DNA of 64,000 nt from Ophiura sarsii (Eukaryota > Echinodermata > Ophiuroidea > Amphilepidida > Ophiuridae), in assembly GCA_035610835.1 (NCBI GenBank), contig CM069446.1, positions 53,720,934-53,784,933 on the forward strand, read 5' to 3'. Shown here one piece after another: positions 14,709-58,670 of this stretch. Made by a program: the position numbers and the translations under genes. Below the pieces are notes generated by a model, which had not been told where the DNA came from, made no database searches, and saw only the letters and a list, made by a program, of their open reading frames with translations. Position 1 is the first letter of the stretch. Every line of letters begins with the position of its first letter.

Positions 14709-15209
14709 GTTTTAAAATTTCACAAATTATTAAAATCACCATAAATGGATTAACCGTGAAAAATGCATTAAGATAAGTACAAACATGCATATACTCAACG
14801 TACCAGGGGGAGTAGACTGAGCCCAGTGTCTGGCAACCACCAGTCAGATTCCACCTCGTTTGAGGCAATCGTCTTTCAATGAAGTATGTACGACAACTAT
14901 AATAGTTTCAATAAAATAAATGTCAGAAAAATAATTTCGTCTGCAGGTGTTTGGTGGATTGGATGTAAATTTTGAAATGATCACTTGAAATTATGCGAAC
15001 AATACTCTTTTCAATGATCCCTGGGCACCACCGAGTAATGAATCTACACATGACATGGCTGTGCTTATGTCAGAATCCTTTCCAATAGACATCGTCGCTG
15101 TTCAGACATACCGGCACATCACCTTACTTAATTCTGTTGTACTCAGGGTATTAGTAATAATTAAACCAAACGATGATTTTTAATGGATATTTTTGTGGTA
15201 ATAAAATGA

Positions 15210-15232
15210 CTACATCCGTTTAATTCTTGCAG
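15210..15232 (+). other. 3' splice site, BTB copy 2
   Basis: Pyrimidine-rich tccgtttaattcttgcag precedes gtctattaag. It matches the acceptors before copies 1 and 3. The donor and first exon were not found in the roughly 500 unassigned bases upstream (14709-15209). Confidence 0.6.
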
Positions 15233-15255
15233 GTCTATTAAGTAAAGCAACCACA

Positions 15256-16635
15256 ATGGCGGAAGCTCCCGGAAAGCCTGTAAGCAGCCGCGAGCTGGAG
15301 GTCCTTGGCAATATAGCTAAACACTTCAACAACTCTGTAACGAGTGATTTAACTTTAGCGGTAGGCGATCAGTCCTACTATGTGCATAGAGTTATATTGT
15401 CAGCTCAGAGCAGTGTCTTCAACACCATGTTGATGAATCGCCGGTGGAAAGATTCTGGCCAGAAGTTAATTGAACTTCATGAATCCCCAGCATGTAAAGC
15501 TGTGTTTGGGGATTTCCTAAATTTTTTCTACAGTGGTAGATTGACTTTGCGTTGTGACAACGTGTGTGCAATTCATATGCTAGCTGACAAGTACGATATG
15601 ACATTGCTGAAGGAAGATGCTGTCACTGTCATGAAGAATGTTCTGATGGGGTTGCAAGGAAAGGCTCACCCGAGCGCAGTGGTATGGCTTCCCTATATCG
15701 AAAAGAATATTCCTGACTTATTGTCAGTATGCTATGACGATATACGGACAAACTTTAATGAAATCGCCACATGCAGTGATGATGAAACCACAGCAATACT
15801 GGAACCTCGACACATAAATGTCATATTGGCAGAAAACGGCAGTGATGTCGTTGTGCCGAACGAGTTGGTGATTTTTCAATTTGTAAGTAAATGGGCCAAA
15901 TTAAAGTTCACAAACCCCTATGATCAGAAAGCAAAGGAAGAACTCAAACCAATTTTGGAATCAATCCGGTTTAACAATATCAATGCGGAGGGGCTTCAGG
16001 AGATCGAACAATCGTTGCTATTCAAAGCGAATAGTGAGTTTTTTCTCAACCCAGCATACAAAGTCCACTCACAAATCCATAGTGCTTCAATGGATGGACA
16101 AGAGACGTCTGCTGGAAATGCTATCGAAGGAAAACACGCAGGTCCATTCGATTCTGATATTAATTGCCAAAGCCTGAATCCTAGATTGTATACCGGAGTA
16201 AACGCTAATTTTGACCCCGGAAAGTTGTTCGTTATGACTATAATGCCTGTCGACTTTGCGGACTTACAGATGTATGCACAATCGCAATCTTGTCTCAGGT
16301 CATCTACTAAAACATGGACATTACAGTTAGAAGGAAACTACCAACGTAGCCAAGTATATGAAAATGAGATGTTTACTCTGACACCGATATTAGCAGATAT
16401 AGGACGTAATTACACGGTTGCTGTCACTGTTGCTGTGTTTGGCTCGAATAAATGTCTAAAATATCGATATGCGCTTAAGCACACAGGCACTGTAAAGGTC
16501 GTCAGTAACCACCGGTATAAAGGTGGAATACCAGAACCAATCACGCTTCACTCCCCAAAACGGGATATCAAAACAACCACTGATGGTGGAGACGAATTGT
16601 TGTTAGGTGTTACCTTGCATTTACATAAGCAATGA
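15256..16635 (+). CDS. BTB/POZ-BACK domain protein, paralogue 2 (BTBD17-like)
   Basis: This 459-residue single-exon protein is the most divergent of the three paralogues. The BTB domain (about residues 20-130) keeps SDLTLAVGDQS, the HR-ILSAQSSVF core and LADKYD. The BACK region spans about 135-255. The tail keeps AYKVHSQ, LHSPKR and the final LLLGVTLHLHKQ. Relative to copies 1 and 3 it lacks several residues after the BACK domain (FFLNPAYK in place of a longer linker) and is shorter near the C-terminus. The frame is open throughout and the differences often fall in third codon positions, so it appears functional. The surrounding DNA is not shared with the other copies beyond the acceptor and the first bases of the 3'UTR. 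That indicates an older duplication than the copy 1/3 event. Confidence 0.9.
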   Translation: MAEAPGKPVSSRELEVLGNIAKHFNNSVTSDLTLAVGDQSYYVHRVILSAQSSVFNTMLMNRRWKDSGQKLIELHESPACKAVFGDFLNFFYSGRLTLRCDNVCAIHMLADKYDMTLLKEDAVTVMKNVLMGLQGKAHPSAVVWLPYIEKNIPDLLSVCYDDIRTNFNEIATCSDDETTAILEPRHINVILAENGSDVVVPNELVIFQFVSKWAKLKFTNPYDQKAKEELKPILESIRFNNINAEGLQEIEQSLLFKANSEFFLNPAYKVHSQIHSASMDGQETSAGNAIEGKHAGPFDSDINCQSLNPRLYTGVNANFDPGKLFVMTIMPVDFADLQMYAQSQSCLRSSTKTWTLQLEGNYQRSQVYENEMFTLTPILADIGRNYTVAVTVAVFGSNKCLKYRYALKHTGTVKVVSNHRYKGGIPEPITLHSPKRDIKTTTDGGDELLLGVTLHLHKQ

Positions 16636-23184: not shown

Positions 23185-23383
23185 ATATGGCTCATTCCAT
23201 GAAGTTGGGGCATATTATGTGACATCCAAGTGAAATTTTCAAAATGGATATTTTCCAACTCTTTCTTCTTTTTTAGGTTCTACATTTACCAAAGTCCAAT
23301 GTAGAACCTTTTTTTTTTAATGTAACATTTGGTGTAAAATAACCGCACATGTTCAACAGTTGGATGACATTTCCAAAAATCCT

Positions 23384-25710
23384 GATGCTACATGGACACC
23401 ATTTCCCATTTCCATATCATTTTCTAATAAATTAGCTTAAGATGTGGGCCAAGTTTCTATACCTCAATTAACTACTTGGAACCACAAATACATGAAAAGA
23501 AACCAGATTTGTCTAGGTTGAACATAACTTAACGAACAAGACATCGTAGATTAACTGTTTTATGTAAAAACTCATTGAAAAGTGACTCTTTATTTTGCAA
23601 TTTGTATAATGAATTTAAATAAAGTACATATCAATATTTGTTTGATGTAAAGTACTCTATAAACCATGCACATTGATTACATTACAGTCATAAAGTAAGT
23701 ATATGAAGTATTATTTACCTGTATAATGTTATAAAATGCACTACCGATGCTACATGGACACCGCGTCTTGTAACATTGTTAATAATAAGACTATTCATAC
23801 TGTTACAATTATTTGAGTGTGAATGGTTTGTCTACTTGTTCATCATATCAAGTAGATACACAGAGTGAATTGCTTGAAATTTATCTAAACACTGTTCATG
23901 TAAAATTTACCTTCTCTGTGTACTTAAGTATTACGATGCTACATGGACACTGTGCCCTAAAATATTTGGAACAGCTTGAACAGGTGCATCTTTTTCAGAT
24001 CAATAGAGAGGATGTACTATGATGTTAACTTTTTATGTTATAAGCACACGATAAAATTAATAACATGGATTGTAAAACTACAAATTACACAAAAAGATAA
24101 CCTGCCATGAAGCATAAAACATAATTACCTATGATACACATACACCATTTCTTACAATTACACAATAACAATACACCATTGATCAAAGAAACTTAAGATG
24201 TCCACTGAAACAAACTTCATGCAGTGTTGTTCTTAAAGTACCCTTTGTGATCTTAGTCTCTTTGCTCTTTCTGATTGAATCATCCTCTATTATTGATAAA
24301 GATGATTGAAAAGTTTGATCACTTAAAAAGTCAGTTTGCAAATATTTTTTTTTAATTGCCATGATGGATTTCTTTGGAAAGGTACTAGTTTTTGAAAATG
24401 ATGGGTTCCTTGTCTTCATCTCCATAAATTCCAGGACGATAGAACTGTCTTCTGAATTAATGTCAAGAACCTGCAAAGCAAAACAAAATAAACCCTATGG
24501 CTTAGTATCTTCATGGAACATTGTGTATTGATATTGGAGTAGATTATTTATTCATGTTGCACTTTTTGTGTTGCAGGAAAATATTTATATTAAAATCATG
24601 CTGGAGTATTTTATTTATTATTCATTAAACATGAAAAAGAATAGCAAAGGATAGAGAACTTAAATGATTTACAATTATTTGTTTTATTTATAGTAAATAA
24701 AACTAAAATAAGGGAATGTTTATTGTGAATTCAGTGAAATGCTAATGGAAATGGTGTCCATGTAGCATTGTGTATTAATATATTTCATTAGATATACATC
24801 TCTCATAATATGCCTTTTTTTCTGTAAAGTTTAGTAAAATGTAGGCAATGTTATTGAATGTTTTGGGTGATGGATAATTTCGAATGGGGTAATTGTTTTA
24901 GTCTAATTAGGCAAATTTTATGAAATGCTACATGGACATGGTGTCCATGTAGCATCGTATTGGTAAGCTATATTATTAGCATTAAAAGAGCAAAAACTAA
25001 TTCATTATTAACTTCAAAGTTTATTAATGATGTGATTCTACAAAAAAATTACAATTTCAACGAACTATAACGATACCCAATGCAAAATATTGCCCATGCT
25101 ATGCCCGATGCTACATGGACGCCAAATTATTATGGCGTCCGTGACTCAAAATTAATATCATAACATGAAACGAAATTCTGATTCAGTGTTTCCCTTTCAA
25201 TAAAAATGCATTAATAAATACAGACATAAAAGCAACATTAAGAAATAATTACAATCACACTTACCATTCACAAAACTATCCAATGTTTACATTTTGATGC
25301 TACATAAAAGTCCCGATGCTACAACGGGACACCAGCGACTGAAACCTTGATAAAACTAGCCCACATGTGGCAAATTCCAAACAAACCTGATAGCTATCGA
25401 CCTCTATCCTTACAAAAAGAAATATGGAATGTTTTATTTATCTCCAGGGGGGGTGGGGGGGGGATTCCCACAAATTGCATAGGATGTTTATCACGATGCT
25501 ACATTTTATGGTTAGGACACCATGCACACGGCACGGTATACTTTTTCATGAATATATGGAATGGTCTTCATGAAATTTATTCTCATTTGCAATAGTTTTC
25601 AATTGATAAATGCTCTTAATTTTGGAAAATAATTAAAAAATGTATGATAGAGAACTACCCCCATTCAGCAATGAAAACTCCCGATGCTACACGTGTATAT
25701 TTTGTGGACA
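23384..25710. repeat. Interspersed 17-bp motif array
   Basis: Ten or more copies of gatgctacatggacacc, eight in plus and two in minus orientation. The pair at 24924/24940 is nearly back to back and palindromic. From 25296 on, copies are split by inserted bases (for example gatgctac ... ggacacc at 25495-25521 and 25683-25712), as if the two halves were conserved separately. The sequence between copies is not obviously repeated, so this is not a simple satellite. Confidence 0.8.
24183..24470 (-). CDS. Candidate terminal coding exon inside the 2.9-kb element
   Basis: A minus-strand frame of about 95 codons begins right after a strong acceptor (tttgctttgcag, AG at 24472-24471) and ends in a stop at 24183. 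It reads VLDINSEDSSIVLEFMEM, then a Ser/Lys-rich stretch, and ends GHLKFL. The composition is normal for a protein and the frame is long for such AT-rich DNA. No domain was recognised and no upstream exon could be found. It may be the last exon of a transposon-encoded protein or a captured host exon. The chance that it is spurious is real. Confidence 0.35.
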   Translation of the reverse strand, partial: VLDINSEDSSIVLEFMEMKTRNPSFSKTSTFPKKSIMAIKKKYLQTDFLSDQTFQSSLSIIEDDSIRKSKETKITKGTLRTTLHEVCFSGHLKFL

Positions 25711-26125
25711 CCGTGCGTAGCATCGGAAAGGCAATTTTCATGTTGCTTGGGTGAAAAATCAGTCCAGCGTGACGAGGTGTTTTGGTCAGTAAACTATGAA
25801 TACATGTATCTTCTATTAATCAAATCGATTTCCAAGCAATTCTATGATAGTTTTGCTTACATAAAACTCATATTAATTGTTGTGTTTTCCATGTCACGTT
25901 TTTAGCAAAAATGGTCTTGGACACCACCTCATTTTTTATTTATTTTTTATTCAAGAAAGGGTCGATTTTTAATTTTTTTTCATGGCTCAATACTATAACT
26001 TAGTACTGTTTTTGGACACCAAAAAAAAATTGATATACACATAGAGTAAAACAGTTTATAAGCTGCCTAAAGTACCAAATTCTGCTATTTTAACAAATGC
26101 CCCAACTTCATGGAATGAGCCATAT

Positions 26126-32500: not shown

Positions 32501-35500
32501 TTGCACACCACCAAATACATCTCCCATAGGGTTACACGTGAAATGCACAATTTCAAAATGGATATTTCTCGACGTTATAAGAAACTGGTAACTCGAAATT
32601 TGGTTTCAACTTGAAGATGAAAGCCATGACTACTAACTCAACAACTCATATATGGGGGGTAACCGGCATAATTTTGAGCTAGAGCCTTTTTAAAAAGTAC
32701 GAGTTGAGTTTTCCTGGTCACACGCAATTGTTGATTAAGATTATTGCGTCAGATACCGGTAATGACCTGAACACAAATGTCTCTGTTAAAATATTAAAAA
32801 ATCATCATTGCATCAATATTTTTGGACCTGAAGAACGCTGATGTGTCTGTCAAAATTCACACTATATTAATTTCGCATAACATGTAGTAAATACCCTAAT
32901 TTTAAACTGTAATTTACAATAGGTCTCCCGTTTCGGCATAGAAACGTGCCGGTTTTGGACTTTTGCCTCAAAGGGGGTAGGGCCAGACGTTATTTAGTGG
33001 TGTGAAACCCTATCATGTTCGCGGAGCGCGTAAAATTTTTGAGTTCATGAACTAAAATGGCCATGAAAAACTGTCCTGAAGGCATAAAAAATATTTTTAT
33101 TTTACAAGTCAGATTGTTGAGCTCAAATAATGAAATATTGAAATTAATACGCGCGAAGCGCGCAAAAATTGGCATTGCTAACATATAAATGGTCCAGTAT
33201 AATATCGAGAATATTTGGTATGGTTTGAGGGCCATTATATTGTTAAAACCTGTAGAAAATATGCGCGTGGAGCGCGCAGTGAATTTTTGAGTTTTAACTA
33301 AAATGGTCATGGAAAACTGTCCTGAAGACACCTTGTAAAAGCTTAAATAATAAATATTCAAATTAATACGCGCGCGGAGCGAGAACAAAAATTGCATTTC
33401 TAACACTAATGGTCCAGATGATAATAACGTCCCCCACATAATAATTATACTTTTTGGTGTTGTTTTTGTATTAAAACTTTGGTCCACTATGATGTTTTTT
33501 AACGTCCCCCACATATTTCGAATATTTGGTGGGTCTGAGGGCCAATATAATGTTAAAACCAGCAGAAAATATTTGCGCGGAGCGTGCAAAATTTGGAATT
33601 GTTGAACTAAATCGGTCATGGACAACTGTCCTGAAGCCATCTTGTCAAGCTTGAATAATGAAACATTGAAACTAATGTTCGCCAAAATTGATATTTTTAA
33701 CACTTAAATTGATCCAGTATGACGTTTTTAACGTCACCACTCATAATATTTAGACTATTTTGCATGGTTCTAGGGCCATTATAATGTTAAATTATGTAGA
33801 AAATATGCGCGCGGAGCGCGCAACATTTTTCAGTTTTTGAACTAAAATGGTCATGGAAAACTGTCCTGCAATGCCATATTGTTAAGTTGAATAATGAAAC
33901 AATCAAAATAATGCGCGCGATGTACGCAAAAATTGATATTTCTAACACTATTATTGGTCCAGTATGACGTTTTTAACGTCTCCACATATTATTTGGAATA
34001 TTTGGTGTGTTTTGAGACCCATCATAATATTGAAACCTGTTGAAAAAGTGAGCGCGAATCGAGCAAAAAACACCCCAGTTTTTATACTAAAATGGTCCAG
34101 AAAAGACGTTCCTGAAGCCCTCTTGTTAAGCTTCAATACTGAAACATTGAAACTTAAACGTGCAATGCGCGCAAAAATTGGCATTTTTAACACTAAAAAG
34201 GTCTAGTATAACGTTTTTAACGTCCCTCAAATTACAATTATGGGGACATGACCCCGTAACCCCCCCCCCCCATTTGCGCCGCATATGTCCCTACCCTTCT
34301 TCCCCCTACCTCCTTCTCTTCCTCCTTCTTCTCCTCTTCCTCCTCTATCTCCTTCTCCTCTATCTCCTTCTCCTCTTCCTCCTTCTCCTCTTCCTCCTTC
34401 TCCTTCTTCCTCCTTTTTTAAACTCTTTTTTCAATGAGGGGGAGAGGGGGGGGGGGGGGGTGCGGCATGGCCTGCTGGCAATATTACCAATGTCATGATT
34501 TGTGTTGTCTTTTTTAGGATTTTTTCTTCTTTTTTTCTTAGGGAAAAGTGTCCATATATATAGGAGCATGTACGAATTACACCGCCCCCCTCCCTACACA
34601 CCGTCTCACTGTCAGACGTGATAAATATTTGACTTTGGTCATATTAAATTGTTATGTAGTGTATATGAAAACAAAATCTTAAAATCTTAGGGGGTGCGCA
34701 CCTTATTATTAGACTGACATTGACACTGTATATTTTTTTCAAAAATCTTAAAATATCGGGGTGCTTAATTACACCCCCCCATACACACCGTCTCACTGTC
34801 AGAGGTGAGAAATACATGACTTTGGTCATATTGAATTGTTATGTGTACGTGTATGTAATACCAAAATCTTAAAATCTTAGGGAGTGCTGCGCATCCCTTA
34901 ACTTATTATTGGACTGACAATGTATATTTTTCAAAAATCTTAAAATCTTAGGGCAGCACCCCCTCTAAAAGACCATGGGGGTGCTGCAGCACCTCAGCAC
35001 CCCACCTTCCCAGGGGCTTGTACCAACAGTCTTTATATCTACACAGGCACTCTTCAGACCTTGTGTGCTGTGAAGGACCTCTATGGATTTGAATGGGAAT
35101 CAGCCCAAGGGCTCCCAAATATGACACATGATTTATTTTAAATACATAAACGTTTAAAATCTAAAAAGATGAATCCAACGGAACCAGGAACAAAACACAC
35201 CAAGGATCAGAAAACTGATACAAGAGGATATCTCGAAAATATAAAGAGTAAAAGCAAGATATACCAACAGGGTGTGGGGAAACAGGTAATAACAAGGGAG
35301 AATAACGCGATAAAACAGATAAATAACAAAAAAACAAAAACAAACGGAAATGCACTGGGACAAGCAATGAAAATTGCTGTGCAATAAAACAACAAAGATA
35401 TATCTGAGACTACTCAGGATATATATGGTAACAATAAAGACCGACGTTTCAAGTGGATATACCACCCTTCATCAGGGACAAAATATAAAAAAACAAAAGT

Positions 35501-38500
35501 GTTAAGAACTATAAATAAGATAATGAACTAGACAAGTCCACCACTGTAATTATAGCACAATGCCAATAATAGATGTTACCTACTAAGCATCCTAGTTAAG
35601 CATCCTAGTTAATACATAAACGTTGATAATATATATATGGGCGATTCCATTGTAACACGCGTTACATTTAAGCGCGCCATTTTTATTCTCCACTCTATTA
35701 CTGTAAAAGTAATTTGAATGAAGTTTTCATCTTTTGTATTGTAATACCCAAGACTTAAGGCTATATCCTCATGCTAACACCACTATGAAATATTAGCTCA
35801 TGTTAATGTTAGACCGCTCCGAATATCGGTAACACGTGTTACGAAAAAAGACGCACTAAAAAAAATCCCAACTTTATTTTGCTTGTGTATTTCAACTAAC
35901 CAACCTACAATCAATTGGTTACTACTGTAAGCAAGTACCTTTATAAGGTTTATAAAACTAGAATAATAACAAGAATTAAAGTTCTCACTTTTTTGGAAAA
36001 TGCAAAATAGTCGGTAACACGTGTTACGGTAACACGCGTTACACTTTGTCCGGCCATAATTTACTAGCCTTAGATTCTTTATTATCTTTCTAAAGTAAAA
36101 TTAATTTTGACTTTGGCAATTGAACTAACATATTAACCATAAATAGTGATAAATAACACTTGAAAAATTGAGGTTTTAGCACGTTTTCCTGAATATGAGT
36201 TTGGTAACACGCGTTACGACATTTTGATGGCCTATTGTAGAGTGGTGGTTATGAATTTATCTAATTGTTTACTATTTTTAAATAGGGCCTAACTAGTAGA
36301 ATTAAAATTACAAGTGGCGTAAATTAAAACCAAATCAATAAAGTAAATATTTTCAAAAAAGTGTTGCTCCGGTAACACGTGTTACCATTTTGTGGGTAAG
36401 AAAAGTAGAATTTTTTCATAGTAAACATTAGCCAAATGTTGTAACAATTTTTTCCTGAACCTTTGCATGAGCTTTGAACAACATAGAGGTAAAAATAAAT
36501 CTTTTGGAGCAATTTTCAGTTTTTTTGCTCCGTCACATTTTCATGGAATCGCCCATATATACAAAAAGCTTTGTCATATAATGCACGTTGCGAGGAGCAA
36601 CCGATTACGTTGACCTTGCACGCTTAAGACTTCAGGTAGTGCTTTCGCAGACGCCCTCTATGTATATATGCCCTCTATGTATATATGTTTTATTTATCAC
36701 GCGTGCTGCAGGGGGACCGTCATGAGTAAAATACACGTTTACAATATTTGAGAGGGACACTGTTTGACGGAAAATGCTGGTTTCGGCTCAATTACGAACC
36801 AGGTTTATCGGTCGATAAACCAGGTTTATCAGCCGATAAACCTGGTTCATCAAAAACCTTGCTTTTCGAATCGATAAACCTGGTTTATCGATTCGAAAAA
36901 ACAGGTTTATCGAACTCGATTAGCAAGTTTTTCGATAAACCAGGTTTATCAGCCAATAAACCTGGTTCATCAAAAACCTTGCTTATCGAATTCGATAAAC
37001 CTGGTTTTTAGAATCGATAAACAAGTGCAAAATACCTGCCATAGGTGTGTATATACAAACTCTATGGGGAATGTGGAAAATATATCCTGTTCAATTTAGA
37101 ATAATTCCTGATCCCCGTATGGTACAAACATGAACTTGGCCTCATTTTAAAGATTGTTTTATATTCTGCTGTCTCTATTTCAACAAAATGCCAAACAGTA
37201 TGTAACAACTGTTAATCATGAATCTATTGGATTGTCAATGGCTTTCTCCCCATTCGCCACACAGTGAAATTACTACATGTATAACAAAAAGTATTCAACA
37301 GATGATAGCAAGAGTACACATTTTTGGAAGCATTCACTTCCCGATATAGTACGTATATCTCAACAACGTAACTCTTGACAACCATTATTTTCCGATGGGT
37401 AATTTCATGAGGAACCCAAATATGCACAGTAAATTATGATTGGGATAGGTATACAAATATTATTTAGCTTTGATCAAAATATAAATATTTCTATATTTTT
37501 AAATTCCAATAGTTAGATTCCTTGTGAGATTTTCGTTCAGAAAATATATACTTTTTATGGTGATGGTGTAAAATATGCAAAACTGGAAATGCAACGCGAA
37601 GGTTGGCGAGTTCAAACACATGGCCATAGCTTTGTATTATCGATCCCTGTCATTTCCTGTTGCAGAATATGCCACGTGTTCATTATGATTATTTACTGGC
37701 ATTTTAATTAAACAAAATGCCTAAAGTTATCAAATACATTTTACTTTGGGCATGAAAACATCAATAGTGTTTTTCTGCAGTAAAACATGACACGTGTTGA
37801 TATTATAACATGCTGTCTTTTTAATTAAAACAAAACTCATTATCCAATCATTTCAATGATTTTCCAAACACACACACACCCCCACCACAAAATTTTATTT
37901 TCAATCAATAGCGTAAAAAACTCATACGTGATTGAAATTTAACTTTATATCATGAATAGTAAATTGTCAGTATCTCAATTTTGATGGACATCAGTCTTTC
38001 CTTCTAAGTCGAGTTACGTTTAGGGTGAGTATATTTTCTTATCGATTATGAGTGGCCTAGAACTATTATAGCATAGAACTACAATTCAAGAAATAACTGT
38101 TGGACCACTTTGAGGACATCGTGTAAATCCACCCTGTCCCCCATTCAATGTTGTTTGGAACCGTTTGATCACCACGGTCGTTGGGACCCTCAATTGATTT
38201 GTGGGGGCGGGGAGGGATATCAGTTAGTAGATAGCTCAAGCTCTCCACACAAGTTTGTTGCAAAATCAGCGCTTGAAAATAGTCCCTTAAAGTGGGATAT
38301 TAGCAAAAAAATGGACTATGTGGTCCAACACCAATTTTCCTCAATCAATGGTGGGGGAACTGCCAAGGCTTCTGATAATATGACTCGGATCAACATTGCC
38401 TCCGGGGAGAGGGGTGGGTTTTTCCTGCAATTAGGACAAAGTGTGCCAACCTTTATTCCTTGATTGTAGCTTCCACTGTACTATAATGCCCTTACTATCG

Positions 38501-41500
38501 AACCACCTTTTAATAACATTTCATTTTCTAATAATGATTGAAAACGTAATTATATTGTTTTTAGCATAAACCGTGCCGTGCAGATGTTCACTTCATGTTA
38601 ATTTGTCAAATATACGAGGAGGAAAAACATGAAATTAATATAAATCATATTATTATATTGCGTGGAGGTCATTTACCTTTAAAGAAAACCATTGGTGTCC
38701 TCAGGAATGCCAAAAGTTATTTCATTTTTACTCTTTCTTTTTTTTTCTCCTCTTTTCCCCTCTTTTGATCTTGCTTTCCTCCTTTTTCCCCATTTATTTT
38801 TCTTCTCAAAAGGCATTATTTCCTTAATTTTAACTGTCTCTTCTTAGGAGCGGTTTTGCCTGCTCCCGCACTTTGTTAACTATAGATGGTTTAAAAGCTC
38901 AAACAGGGGGAGTCTGAGAAGGAAGTGCCCCCTCAGAATTAGAATTCATTTCAATTTTCGAACTCATTTGGTGCGATCTGGTGTATACTTTTGACCACAA
39001 TTTTATCGAAAAGCCACCTCTTCATTTCCAATAAATATTTTGTTTTTATCGATGCAAGAAAGAAGTTGCGCATATATTTTCTCGATTTAAGTATAGATTG
39101 TTTAAAAGCTCGAAAATTGTTCAAACCCATTTGGTGCGATTTGTTTTGTACTTTTGAGGATGGAGACCACATCCAGCCCCGACCACATGCCACTGGTAAA
39201 AAGATGTGTGAGTCCTGACTCGCTCCAGATTAAGGGGGGGGGGGGGGGGGGGGGGGGGTCAAAAAAGTGTCGGGTCTAGTAATCAAGAAGGGGGGGGGGG
39301 GGGTTGTCAAACAAAATTATGTATAGCGAAGGGGGGGGGGGGGTTCAAAAAGCTTTGATGTACCAAAAATAACATTTTCAACCACCCCCCATCCACCAAA
39401 GTTTTTATGAAATCTCCCTAGCTATCGGACATTTACAAAAACTAAGCATGCTAAGTAGCTAGACAATTTTAACAAAGTCCCTGTGGGCAGAGAGCTATGG
39501 GGAAGAAATACCTTGAATATTCGTGAACGAGTTCGGCGCTCATGTTCAGCATGGTTCGGCTACGCCTTTGCCTTTAACCGCTCAATATATTTCTTGAGCG
39601 GTATATAAGATATACGAGATGGTTTAAAACTTTAACAACGGCCGTCTGCAAAGCAGGAAAACAAAAACGTGCCGGTTACCCTAGTGCGTGAGCAACTCAG
39701 AATTATTTAGACAAGCAAAACAATTCTTTTATTATTTTACAAGGTTTCCATAGCAACCAAAATATGTCAAAACATGATTTTTAAATCAAAACACATCGAT
39801 GTCAAAACATAATCTTTAAATCCAAACATATCGAAAATAACAAAATCAAACATGTCAGGTTGCTGCAGAGTTTTGGTGCCAATCGGTAAAAAATAGTATT
39901 TATACCATTACCATGTAGACCTCTTTTTGCACCAAAATGCATTATTTTACATAGTTTCCGTAGCAACCAAAATATGTCAAAACATGATCACAAATCGAAA
40001 ATGTCGATCATCAAACAAGTCAGGTTTCTGCAAAGTTTTGGTGCCAAACGGTAAAAAATTAACCATGTATGCCTATTTTCCCCGAAAATGCATTATTTAA
40101 CAAGGTTTCCGTAGCTAACCAATTGATGTCAAAACATGATTTTTAAATCAAAACACATCGAAAATGTCAATCATCAAACAAGTCAGGTTGTTGCAAAGTT
40201 TTGGTGCCAAACGGTAAAAGATAAACCATGTAGACCTATTTCCCCCCCGAAAATGCATTATTTTACAAGGTTTCCATAGCAACCAATAAATGTCAAAACA
40301 TGATTTTTAAATTAAAACACATCGAAAATGTCGATCATCTAACAAGTCAGGTTGCTGCAAAGTTTTGGTGCCAATCGGAAAAAATAAACCATGTAGACCT
40401 ATTTTCCCCGAAAATGCATTATTTTACAAGGTTTCCATGACAACTAATCGTTATCTCCTTTTAAGTAACATATTTTGTAATGATTCTCAAGAAAAAAATA
40501 ATTACATAACTATTTGTAGATTTTCACCATGATAGCTCTATTACTTATCGATTTACACAATTCTTAATTCACCCTTATTTTCAGGTTAATCACCTAACTC
40601 AAATTTACGAAACTCAAATAATAATAGGACCAAAAATGTTTAAATATTCTAACTCGGCAAAACAAAATGATTCAAACAATTCTGGGCCAGGACATTTACG
40701 CCACTTCAAGTCCATTCCATGTCCTTACTATCGGCTTGCCCGCTACTGGTGGATACTCACATGGCCAGTACATGTCGCTGCATGTGCTGGTCCAGTACTG
40801 CTGGGCTGGCAAATGCACACTAGCGTATCTGGGGTCTTTTCCAGGGGGGGGGGGGCAAAGGATATTTCCCCGTTGAACACCAGTTCGAGCCTATTGAGTA
40901 AAAAGATTGTGCAACTGAGTTGTTTATTCCAGCGAATGACGTTGTATCCTAATCTGACCATTATGCAAAAAAAAAAACCATCAAGATTTCAATGTTTTTG
41001 TATGCAAAAACATCATCATGATTTCAATATTGGTATTTTTTGACGAATTGCTGGTGTAACCTTAACGGAGCATATTTTCTCTGTAATCTGCTGTCCTATA
41101 TATTATTGTAGGATAATGATTACTGTCACTGCTGTGAAAGGTAGAGCTATTATTCCTAGGTTTGGTTCTCATAGTGTGTGGCCTCTGAATAGGCTAAGTA
41201 CAATGCGTATCAGTGAAGGTCAAGTTTAGGTTTTGCAGGGAATGAATTTTCGTTTGTTGTAACTCAAAGGAACCATGGATGATTTCGGATATCTAGGTGG
41301 TTTTGGTCAACTCTTGAAAGTCAAGTTTGGTATAAACATAAACTGGATTCAAATGGCAAAACCTACTCAGCCTGTTCTCAGCAAGCAAAGTTGGAATGTT
41401 TAGGCTCCTGCGCTAGGCGTCTTTCTCCGAAACGAGCTAATATACTTTTCCCGTTGTAATGATATAAACAATATTGTTCGGATGTCACCTAGCTATAACA

Positions 41501-48414: not shown

Positions 48415-49306
48415 GTTATAGCATGGAATTACGAGACACGGAATACCATCGACAAGACCCTGTTATATAACTCAATTATATTGCCAATGGCGGTACCTCC
48501 TCTACACACAAGCATTGACAGACATTGAATGACTTGCCCATTATGTACGCACATCGGGCTATTCCTTTGACCAAGCATCATCTTTACCGGTTATGTTGCC
48601 ATATTGACTATTACTACTCCCACGGACGCATGGTTGCCAGTTATATTTTTCTTCCAAACCAAATACGATATTGGGTCAGTTTGTTGTCAAAAACGGGTGT
48701 ACAAAACTCATTTGTAGGAGAAATCCGCTATAAACCGCATGGTCTAACCTACATATTTGGGTAGATAAGTTGATGAAATCTGCTAATTTGTAAATACAAA
48801 TAGCGGCCAAAAGTGCGCATTCTCAAAATTGGCTGAAAATCTAGACCTGTTTTCTAGGTCATCTATGCACATTTTAGGAAATTATTGGATTCAAGAAGTA
48901 ATAAAAAACTGAGTGAAATAGTTTCTATAAAACTTCACAAATAGTGTTTACATCAATCGCATCGGTGAATGTGTGTATTAATTCAATAACTTTAAAATAA
49001 TTAGCAATATTTTAAACTTTCATCGTTGCTTCTGGTATCAAACTGTTTTTATGCATCCCCAGCTTGCATTAGGTATGCAAACGACTATCAATACCGAAAT
49101 TATAACTACCGCGGTTTTTTGAAACATGCTACTCATATATACATGCGTGAACGGAACGAACATAATCAGCTCAACACGACATTTCAATAGAGATGATTCA
49201 TTGTTGAAGATGTATTGTAACAGGCAGTGACGCGCGGTGACCTGTAGAATTTGTTCACAGCGCGGCCCTTTAAATTTTGCCGGTAAAGGTGATAGGTACC
49301 TTGATG

Positions 49307-49344
<38 letters not shown>

Positions 49345-49386
49345 CTCGATGGTATTCCGTGTCTCGTAATTCCATGGTTATAGCTA
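48415..49386. mobile_element. TIR element of about 970 bp with a 36-G run at one end
   Basis: The end catggaattacgagacacgg followed by aataccatcga (48422-48452) is mirrored at 49347-49377 without mismatch, and the pairing extends loosely into ttata / tatag outside. Directly inside the right end lies an uninterrupted run of 36 G (49309-49344). The interior encodes nothing recognisable. Confidence 0.8.
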
Positions 49387-53906: not shown

Positions 53907-54965
53907 CAGGGTGTATAAAAAAAAACCGCAACACTTTTTGTCGCAAGCTCTCTGATTACGGCAAATCACAAATCACTCTGACATTTATATATTCTGTTAG
54001 GTGTACTTATTGGCTATCACATAGTCAAATTACAGCGATATCGGTTATTGATTCGCTGAGATATCAACGATACACGTAGACAAGTGCAAAACACGTTTTA
54101 CATCGTTTATCCTGTATGACTGATTTTCTGGTCAGGTGAATATTAACAAGACATTTTAATAACACATTGTACTTCAATAATTGGAATCAAACTCATCATT
54201 CTGAGAAGAAAATGTCACGTTAAAGGTATCAAATGTCTGGCTATTACAGTATCACATTAATATTAATTAAATCTGGCAATAAATTAGTTGCTAGTTAATG
54301 ACACAACTTGAAAATCCAGATTACAAAGTCTGTTTGCAAATCCTCTCTTTTTCTCTCGTTAGTTAATGTCATAATAAAACAGTATGGCACATTATTCAAA
54401 AGATAAACAAATGGAATAGTCCAGGGAAGATAGTAATTGTCTTGTATGAATCAGTCATTGTTAGTCTGTTGTGAATGGGAAATCATGGTGCTGCTCGACC
54501 CTCAAAATGCTGTCCTTGTTTTAAGATGCATCGATTAAGACATTATGTGGCGATCATAGCAATCGGTGGTTCAGAACTTAAAAAGGGTGATTGACGTATT
54601 CAAATGGTCGAATGATTATCAGATTACACGATCAAATGATTTTATGTACCACCTTACTCAAACAAAGGAAATTAAGATAAACCATTCCAGACATTGAGGA
54701 TACATTGTTATCAAACTGTTAACCCATAACACTAATCGGACAGGAAAATCCAAGTTTTTAGAACGAACGATGTAAAACGTGTTTTGCACTTCTCTACTTA
54801 TACCTTTAATATCTCTCCGAATACATAATCGATATCGTTGTAATTTAACTATGTGATAGCCATTAAATAGACCTAACAGAATATTTAAGTTTTAGAGTAA
54901 TTTGCATTTTACTGTGACCGTACAGCTCTCGACAAAAAGTGTTGCGTTCTTTTTGATACACGCTG
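53907..54965. mobile_element. Long-TIR element, CAGGGTGTATAAAAA end, TA target
   Basis: The ends cagggtgtataaaaa and (reversed) cagcgtgtatcaaaaa are each next to a TA. The inverted arms extend over about 210 bp (for example ggctatcacatagtcaaatt on the left against its mirror at about 54845-54865) at roughly 85% identity, with aagtgcaaaacacgttttac mirrored exactly further in. It is about 1,059 bp long with no transposase. TA targets and the end sequence suggest a Tc1/mariner-type non-autonomous element. Confidence 0.8.
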
Positions 54966-57183: not shown

Positions 57184-57206
57184 GTCTATGAAGTAATACA
57201 GCCACT

Positions 57207-58670
57207 ATGGCGAAGGCTCCTGTAAGGCATGGAAGCAGCCGCGAGCTGGATGTCTTTGGAAATATTGCTAAACATTTCAACAACCCTGCAACGAGTGATT
57301 TAACTGTAACGGTAGGCGATCAGTCTTTCTATGTTCATAGATTTATATTGTCAGCACAAAGCGGTGTCTTCGATACCATGTTGATGAACCGCCAATGGAA
57401 AGAGTCTGTCCAGAAGGTCATCGAACTTGATGAATCTCCAGAATGTGTAGCTGTGTTTGGTGATTTCCTGAAGTTCTTCTACATTGGAAAACTGACTTTG
57501 AGTTGTGACAACGTGTGTGCCATTCATATGCTGGCTGACAAATATGATCTGCCACTGTTGAAGGAAGATGCTGTAGCTTTCATGGAGGATGTCCTTACGG
57601 GGTTGCAAGATAAGGTTTTCCCAAGCGCAGTGGTATGGCTTCCCTACATCGAAATGGTTATTCCTGACTTGTTGCCAGTATGTTATGACGCTATGCGGAC
57701 TAACTTCTATGAAATCGCCAATTGCAATGATGATAAAACCACATCCGTATTGGAATCTCAGCATATTAATGCCATTTTGGCAAGGAAAGGCAGTGATGTC
57801 GTTGTGCCGAATGAATTGTTGATCTTTCAATTTGTAAGCAAATGGGCCAAATTGAAATTCGAAAACCTCTCCGGGCGGAGAGCAAAGAAAGAACTCAAAC
57901 CAGTCTTGGAATCGATTCGGTTTTACAATATCAATGCGAAAGGGCTTCAGAAGATCGAACAATCTCCGTTATGCAACGCGATAGGCAAGTCATTTCTCAG
58001 TAACTATACACTTCCAGCATACAAAGTCCACTCACAAATGCTGCATATAGTTTCAATGAATGGAAAAGAGAAGTCATCTGGAAACGCCACTGATGAGAAA
58101 CACACATGTCCATTCGATTCTGGTGATAATTGCTCACATCTGAATCCTAGATTGTATACTCAAAATCTTTACGGCCGCGTAAGTGGTAATATTGATCCCA
58201 AAATGTCTTTCATGGCGTCAATAACACCTATTGACTTGGCGGACTTACAGATGTATGCAAATGTCCAATTCTGCCTCGAAAACTCTACTAACAATAGCAT
58301 GTTTAGGAAATGGAGATTTGAGTGTAAAGGAAACTACCAAACTAGCGAATCATATGACAATGAGACCTTCACTCTGAAACCAAGACCTGCAGATATTGGA
58401 CGTAAATACACTGTTGCTGTAATTGCCGTATACATGATGAAGACATGTCTGAAATATCGATATGCAATTAAGCACACAGGCACTGTCGGGGGCACTGTAA
58501 AGGCTGCCATTACTATTAGCGGCCCCCGGAAATTTCATTGTTTAACACCAGATGCAATCACGCTTCATTCCCCTAAACGCCCAAAAGGCATATGGGATAT
58601 CAGTAAGCCGTCTTGTGATTATGCACAAAGGTTGTTGTTAGGTGTTGCTGTGCATTTACATAAGCAATGA
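57207..58670 (+). CDS. BTB/POZ-BACK domain protein, paralogue 3 (BTBD17-like)
   Basis: A 487-residue single-exon protein, the longest paralogue. BTB about residues 20-130, BACK about 135-255 and the family tail ending LLLGVAVHLHKQ. Residues 1-310 are nearly identical to copy 1, with long runs that have no nucleotide difference (for example 57867-58015). The C-terminal 170 residues differ more. An extra stretch of about 12 residues around GTVGGTVKAAITISGPRKF is seen here only. This uneven pattern suggests gene conversion of the 5' and middle parts or relaxed selection on the tail. The start is fixed by gccactATGG and the shared acceptor. The frame is fully open. Confidence 0.9.
   Translation: MAKAPVRHGSSRELDVFGNIAKHFNNPATSDLTVTVGDQSFYVHRFILSAQSGVFDTMLMNRQWKESVQKVIELDESPECVAVFGDFLKFFYIGKLTLSCDNVCAIHMLADKYDLPLLKEDAVAFMEDVLTGLQDKVFPSAVVWLPYIEMVIPDLLPVCYDAMRTNFYEIANCNDDKTTSVLESQHINAILARKGSDVVVPNELLIFQFVSKWAKLKFENLSGRRAKKELKPVLESIRFYNINAKGLQKIEQSPLCNAIGKSFLSNYTLPAYKVHSQMLHIVSMNGKEKSSGNATDEKHTCPFDSGDNCSHLNPRLYTQNLYGRVSGNIDPKMSFMASITPIDLADLQMYANVQFCLENSTNNSMFRKWRFECKGNYQTSESYDNETFTLKPRPADIGRKYTVAVIAVYMMKTCLKYRYAIKHTGTVGGTVKAAITISGPRKFHCLTPDAITLHSPKRPKGIWDISKPSCDYAQRLLLGVAVHLHKQ

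Follow-up and report, generated by a model that had tools for sequence, protein, structure and literature searches.

Evenly spaced internal sites in a non-autonomous DNA transposon of Ophiura sarsii and in further families with alike ends

In a stretch of 64,000 nucleotides of the Ophiura sarsii genome (assembly GCA_035610835.1, contig CM069446.1, positions 53,720,934 to 53,784,933 of the forward strand; hereafter the window), one short sequence recurs six times, almost evenly spaced, within less than 1 kb. This raises the question of which kind of element carries the sequence, whether the sites are maintained, and whether the distance between them has a role.

The carrier, E1, is a non-autonomous cut-and-paste DNA transposon of 916 bp (35639-36554, plus strand). 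It is non-coding, with no stop-to-stop frame of at least 150 amino acids in its interior. The left end GGGCGATTCCAT (35639-35650, plus strand; GGGCGATTCCAC in the consensuses of the copy groups) is mirrored by the right end ATGGAATCGCCC (36543-36554, minus strand), and both are bordered by the target-site duplication ATAT (35635-35638 and 36555-36558). An inverted-repeat search gave a match of 19/19 bases between 35632-35650 and 36543-36561; the outer part of this match is TA-rich flank and target duplication, and the ends proper measure 12 bp. An exact 4-bp duplication was present in 42 of 55 full-length copies other than E1, and an exact 5-bp duplication in 0/55. Matches at 2 bp (29 of the same copies) and at 6 bp (3 copies) were also seen, as expected with runs of TA. 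The 55 copies are partly non-independent: L057, L058 and L059 have common flanks, and L087 and L094 look like a single insertion that was duplicated. The 42 exact duplications read ATAT (25), ATAG (4), ATTT (3), GTAT, CTAT and ATGT (2 each), and ACAT, TAAT, TTAT and AAAT (1 each). A BLAST search of the genome with E1 returned 1605 candidates, 40 of which were scored; the copies listed among these 40, E1 itself aside, are 96-98% identical, and diverged copies with about 72-82% identity to E1 are also present in the genome. The internal site occurs 2935 times on the forward strand of the 1.57-Gb genome, against 14 occurrences of a reversed-pattern control. E1 is thus a MITE, with inverted ends, a duplication of fixed length, many near-identical copies and no transposase gene. 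The ends, the 4-bp duplications and the genome copies bear out the initial annotation, which had described a transposon-like element with its own inverted ends.

In the accessible parts of two accounts, Sola2 elements have 4-bp AT-rich target duplications such as ATAT, AAAT and ATTT (PMC3627910) and are present in bivalves (PMC10294476). E1 is like Sola2 MITEs in that it is short and non-coding and has inverted ends and 4-bp AT-rich duplications, including ATAT, ATTT and AAAT; unlike E1, the elements in these same parts of the Sola2 accounts come with no mention of evenly spaced internal sites (PMC3627910, PMC10294476). The length and composition of the E1 duplication fit Sola2. Membership of the superfamily is not established and E1 is not filed there, because no transposase is linked to it. 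Kolobok and piggyBac, for which the accessible part of a further source gives a TTAA target duplication (PMC9587614), were rejected, TTAA being absent from the 42 exact E1 duplications.

The copies were divided by eye, from a tree, into four groups: A (34 copies with E1), B (6), C (4) and O (14), the last consisting of old copies, several of them incomplete. L072, L066 and L119 fall outside the groups, L073 is a 53-bp fragment, and inserts or gaps led to the removal of L063, L092 and L118 ahead of the alignment. In E1 the six sites read (C)GGTAACACGYGTTAC, also written CGGTAACACGYGTTAC, all in a single orientation. The pattern GTAACACGYGTTAC lies at exactly 35652, 35829, 36014, 36029, 36204 and 36372, which gives spacings of 177, 185, 15, 175 and 168 bp, in agreement with what had been annotated. 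Site 1 (35652-35665) adjoins the left end and has the form GTAACACGCGTTAC, like site 4 (36029-36042), which lies 15 bp past site 3, and site 5 (36204-36217). Site 2 (35829-35842), site 3 (36014-36027) and site 6 (36372-36385), the last starting 182 bp from the right end, have the form GTAACACGTGTTAC; all six are on the plus strand. A search of both strands of the 64 kb with up to two mismatches returned 12 matches, all at these six places, whereas dinucleotide shuffles averaged 0.70 matches and never exceeded 5.

The sites had been called perfect palindromes throughout. This applies to only three of the six, the CACGTG copies at 35829, 36014 and 36372, and not to the three CACGCG copies; moreover, the copy at 35829, CACGTG in E1, is CACGCG in the consensus of each group. 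The half sites, GTAAC-N4-GTTAC, look suited to a dimer that would contact both, but a G precedes the site in 6/6 sites of all four consensuses, and this constant G together with the one orientation of all six sites makes the site directional. The suggestion of an E-box bound by a bHLH-type protein had to be abandoned, because most consensus sites do not have the CACGTG core: it is present in 2/6 sites of A, B and C (absent from 4/6), in 1/6 of O (5/6 without it) and in 3/6 of E1 itself.

Conservation of the sites was evaluated on the consensuses, by Fisher tests in which columns are taken as independent. None of the 84 site bases differs between A and B, against 80/808 elsewhere (p = 2.5e-4), or between B and C (0/84 against 66/808, p = 1.1e-3); the A-C comparison, with 0/84 against 21/809, is not significant (p = 0.12). 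Two of the 84 site bases differ in each comparison with O, against 113/800 elsewhere for A (p = 4.9e-4), 140/800 for B (p = 3.3e-5) and 100/800 for C (p = 1.7e-3). Both changes in O fall within the four central bases, and in none of the six sites do the GTAAC and GTTAC halves vary across the four consensuses. Windows of 14 bases unchanged in all four consensuses make up 6.6% of 740 background windows as compared with 4/6 sites; for A, B and C only, the values are 25% and 6/6.

In a simple tally of 18 copies that left gaps and CpG in, the sites were hardly more conserved than the rest (0.935 against 0.920), and in five diverged copies they were less conserved (0.855 against 0.880). The weakness of this count is due to the mixing of CpG decay and gaps with substitutions. 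CpG bases were set apart in a copy-level test restricted to copies found by BLAST; E1 and the copies found by exact site match (L056-L074) were omitted from this test to avoid circularity and kept in the consensus comparison. Non-CpG changes affected 3/1708 site bases against 205/21916 others in 28 group A copies (p = 2.3e-4), and 12/514 against 592/8186 in 12 group O copies (p = 2.5e-6), for which five sites were recognised in the O consensus and the sixth was scored as background. Non-CpG site bases of the BLAST-found copies thus carry about three to five times fewer changes than the rest. At CpG bases the sites are not significantly spared in A (12/644 against 21/728, p = 0.29); in O the counts are 22/239 and 70/418 (p = 0.007). 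Equally low values were given by 0/618 (A) and 0/608 (O) shifted patterns and by 1/5000 (A) and 0/5000 (O) sets of random 14-mers. With base-matched background, homopolymer runs excluded, 3 changes were seen where 14.4 were expected in A (27 copies, L094 dropped), and 12 where 31.6 were expected in O. The depletion concerns private changes as well as shared ones: 3 private changes at 61 site positions against 133 at 783 others in A, and 12 at 48 against 364 at 760 in O. The shortage of private changes is hard to account for by selection on master copies only. Dead copies are expected to decay uniformly, which leaves two options: numerous copies serve as sources, or the sites have a lower mutation rate, as shielding, for instance, would bring about. 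Both the consensus and the copy-level counts support the initial view of conserved sites in a diverged background; other copies retain the sites, and the spacing is non-random.

The spacing of E1 is more even than uniform placement predicts (p = 6.5e-5, the 15-bp pair being counted as one site, a choice made post hoc). Is this layout particular to E1? A second element of the window, E2 (23189-26121, plus strand, 2933 bp), has the same layout, with ends GGCTCATTCCATGAAGTTGGGGCAT and ATAT flanks (23185-23188 and 26122-26125), the evidence for its duplication coming from this window copy. Its site GATGCTACATGGACACC is found at 23384-23400 and 23746-23762 and, with one mismatch, at 23935-23951, 25107-25123 and, on the minus strand, 24753-24769; a facing pair lies at 24924-24956. 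On the plus strand follow a double, GATGCTACA then GGGACACC (25296-25333), two split sites, GATGCTACA ... AGGACACC (25495-25521) and GATGCTACA ... TGGACACC (25683-25712), and the half site TGGACACC (25918-25925), with another at 26013. Counted from 23185, the sites are at 200, 562, 751, 1577, 1752 (pair), 1923, 2121 (pair), 2311 and 2499, so that the spacings are 362, 189, 826, 175, 171, 198, 190 and 188 bp; a weaker copy near 24128 was left uncounted. The array therefore has two larger gaps between counted sites (362 and 826 bp), and its best-fit period is 193, not 184.

BLAST with E2 gave 1258 candidates at first look; among the 40 scored, 32 (E2 included) align end to end, that is in one piece and within 3 bases of the ends, two further copies do so nearly, and those other than E2 have 96-98% identity. 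The genome contains the 23-base E2 end 964 + 978 times on the two strands and the site GATGCTACATGGACACC 2105 + 2079 times, against 0 + 0 for the reversed control in both cases. E2 also has a 103-aa open frame (24183-24494, minus strand), with a start that by eye resembles a splice acceptor; a 95-residue piece of it gave no Pfam match and no homologue at E 10.

A third family, E3, is nested in the E2 copy L122; it is bounded by GGGTGTTTCCATAAATA ends and an ATGT duplication, and successive copies of GAGACACCAAA in it are 160, 175 and 191 bp apart. The E3 copy L126 (1199 bp, ATAT) has sites composed of CGTGTAAC and GAGACACCAAA at 219, 408, 584 and 775, and a third copy, L128, contains further inserts; the duplications of the three copies were read by eye. 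The E3 ends occur 151 + 145 times in the genome, against 5 + 1 for the reversed control. In both E2 and E3 the site is bipartite: one part contains ACACC (as GGACACC or GAGACACC), and the other lies 0-13 bases away. E4 (L127, L133; ends GGGTGTTTCCACA) shows intervals of 201-211 bp between its GTAACGGTTGTAAC-type sites, and its copy L127 has no clear duplication. E5, inside an E2 copy, has GTCCGTCCGTGAC at 541, 563, 730 and 916 of L137 (span 541-928), two sites being 22 bp apart and the others at steps of about 180 bp; no ends were seen for it. The case for the evenly spaced layout is weaker in E4 and E5. The ends of the families are similar, with GGGYGWTTCCAY and, in E2, GGCTCATTCCAT, and the 4-bp flanking duplications are mostly ATAT; GGGYGWTTCCAY occurs 1882 times on the forward strand of the genome, against 197 for the reversed control. 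Several families with alike ends are thus present in this genome, and in each of them a site of its own recurs at steps of roughly 184 bp over much of the element.

Spacings fall within 165-215 bp in 4/4 cases for E1 (p = 5e-5), 3/3 for E3 (p = 8.5e-4) and 6/8 for E2. Thirteen pooled spacings, taken from the E1 consensus (pair averaged), the six short E2 intervals and the E3 copy L126, have a mean of 184 bp (SD 9, range 168-198); the two long E2 gaps, E4, E5 and the L122 copy lie outside this pool. The best-fit periods are 182 for E1, 193 for E2 and 184 for E3 (p = 0.0085, 0.007 and 0.018 against random placement). A scan for 11-base words recurring at steps of 150-225 bp without tandem similarity, over 337 kb of window and genome loci with overlaps included, flagged E2, E3 (L122, L126, L128) and E5, together with L073 and L103, each by a single word and perhaps by chance. 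The scan passed over E1, whose words had been filtered from the loci and whose exact words in the window recur at double steps. As the scanned loci had been chosen via E1-E3, the scan is no survey. With the tandem filter off, the window gave 32 such words, part of them from real tandem arrays, against none in 20 Markov resamples.

A length of 184 bp is within the range of nucleosome repeats. The statement that the E1 spacing is close to one nucleosome repeat therefore holds as arithmetic, and recurs in other families, while two crude sequence checks gave no nucleosome-type signal: no 10-bp period of AA/TT/TA was found (the best was 12.4 bp), and there was no GC dip at the sites, where a rise in GC is largely the sites themselves. 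The step from this distance to nucleosomes accordingly has no direct support.

Slightly better than even, with a probability of about 0.55, is in our estimate the reading that, in families of the E1 type, the internal sites serve a transposition protein for docking, with roughly one site to each nucleosome repeat. The sites would be bound by a transposase supplied in trans, or by its partner protein. Binding along the whole element would be required for efficient mobilisation, so that masters with damaged sites would drop out. In the simplest account of sites that differ while their distance does not, each family's autonomous relative would supply the protein, and chromatin would set the distance. 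With less confidence, we suggest that the spacing may equal one nucleosome repeat with one site per linker or nucleosome edge, which would make the element bindable while wrapped in chromatin. The docking part of this reading draws on site conservation, a result for E1 only, and the chromatin part on the arithmetic. A bolder version, in which the transposon lineage converged, family after family, on protein-binding sites one nucleosome repeat apart, the copies forming phased nucleosome arrays with a docking site per linker and recognition along the whole chromatinised element, is speculative and in our judgement unlikely.

No autonomous E1 partner was found by searching for an E1 end and site followed by a different start of the interior (0 matches), nor was an autonomous partner recognised by eye among inverted pairs of GGGYGWTTCCAY, the E2 end or the E3 end in the first 100 places listed for each. 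No frame of at least 80 aa was present in the 1.7 kb read from each of two long elements, an E2-type one of 5.4 kb and an E3-type one of 4.7 kb; another site array, E5, is nested inside the 5.4-kb element.

The sites could instead be bound by a host protein, either a transcription factor or a chromatin factor, which the elements would use to be transcribed in the germline or to gain an open chromatin state. The conserved GTAAC-N4-GTTAC, with its resemblance to a dimer site, agrees with such a factor, and a protein sitting on the sites could shield them, by which the depletion of private changes would also be explained. That the site differs from family to family is a better fit to family-specific proteins than to one host factor, and the E-box variant of the proposal fails on the four of six sites in A, B and C that have no CACGTG; we regard a host factor as improbable. 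Doubtful to a like degree is the alternative that the even spacing is accidental or comes from growth of the element, the sites alone mattering and the distance having no role. The intervals hardly vary among the E1 groups, yet the consensuses have few indels anyway, so that constancy within E1 is no proof of selection on distance; against an accident, families with different sites show the same interval of 160-200 bp (in the 165-215 bp range, E1 4/4 and E3 3/3).

CENP-B boxes are found in alpha satellite, and bivalve elements with internal satellite repeats exist. E1 is like CENP-B-box arrays in having a conserved box per unit of roughly nucleosome length, and unlike them and other satellite arrays in that no tandem unit is detectable around the box. 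It is very unlikely that an ancient satellite of about 180-bp units decayed inside the transposon until only a CENP-B-box-like motif was left: the unit length is typical of satellites, the sites share one orientation and a common preceding G, and sites 1 and 4 are 79% alike over 29 bp (14 of these being the site itself), with the stretches after them giving the lowest of 20 p-values (0.013), but over all 20 pairwise comparisons with block shuffles the inter-site stretches are no more alike than chance, and the site-specific cores kept in consensuses A, B and C (CACGTG at sites 3 and 6, CACGCG at sites 1, 2, 4 and 5) speak against homogenisation. A diverged tandem array receives no support from these scores, and the likeness of units outside the box that a satellite-bearing transposon or CENP-B-box array would have was not seen in E1, where Tandem Repeats Finder reported only the 15-bp site pair. 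The initial observation that the DNA between the sites holds no repeat is thus upheld, in that the stretches have no clear mutual similarity.

Other features of the window were recorded. Inverted ends CGCAACACTTTTTGTCG about 1 kb apart delimit 53927-54946, and their sequence is shared by the ends of an insert of 1.1 kb in the E2 copy L123, so that this segment looks like another mobile family. A perfect 31-bp inverted repeat about 0.95 kb apart marks a transposon-like element at 48422-49376, and AACCTGGTTTATCG occurs in dense inverted and direct repeats at 36797-37022. Tandem arrays are present at 33479-34224 (period 245 bp) and 39990-40438 (period 163 bp). Three similar uninterrupted frames of 476-492 aa lie at 610-2061, 15205-16635 and 57192-58670; the first has BTB and BACK matches, and the best database homologue of the third is 51% identical.

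In viral contigs, GTAACACGTGTTAC was found in 46 stretches, 0/46 of which contain the E1 end core GGCGATTCCA, and no site pair 150-180 bases apart was detected. A shortened E1 end followed by GTAAC gave three viral-contig matches (L047, L048, L049), and phage BLAST with E1 gave six weak matches covering 3-5% of E1. In the viral contig IMGVR_UViG_3300029787_000318 (L014, L027, L018, L044), GTAACACGTGTTAC occurs seven times in 7.4 kb, spaced by 416-1738 bp. These are perhaps operator-like phage sites, with no sign of a link to E1.

Among known transposons, En/Spm (CACTA) and Ac/Ds carry subterminal repeated motifs that are bound by an element-encoded protein and crowded near the ends. E1 is like them in repeating a short motif inside the element, protein binding being putative in E1; unlike their end-crowded motifs, its sites run through the element at about 184 bp. 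Our search of the literature, outside which most subscription papers and Repbase lay, found no earlier account of evenly spaced internal transposon sites. E1 is otherwise a MITE; the apparent novelty is the evenly spaced, family-specific sites, conserved in E1, which look new.

To our knowledge, how a transposase finds and pairs the ends of an element inside chromatin has been little tested, and most models of transposition that we know of deal with naked DNA and with nothing but the ends. Families that differ in their conserved sites and agree in a near-nucleosomal distance constitute a natural experiment; if the distance is selected, it would be direct evidence for recognition on nucleosomal DNA. 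The layout is also a sequence signature simple enough to search other genomes for elements of this kind, and its recurrence with different sites hints at a shared way of moving or packaging these elements.
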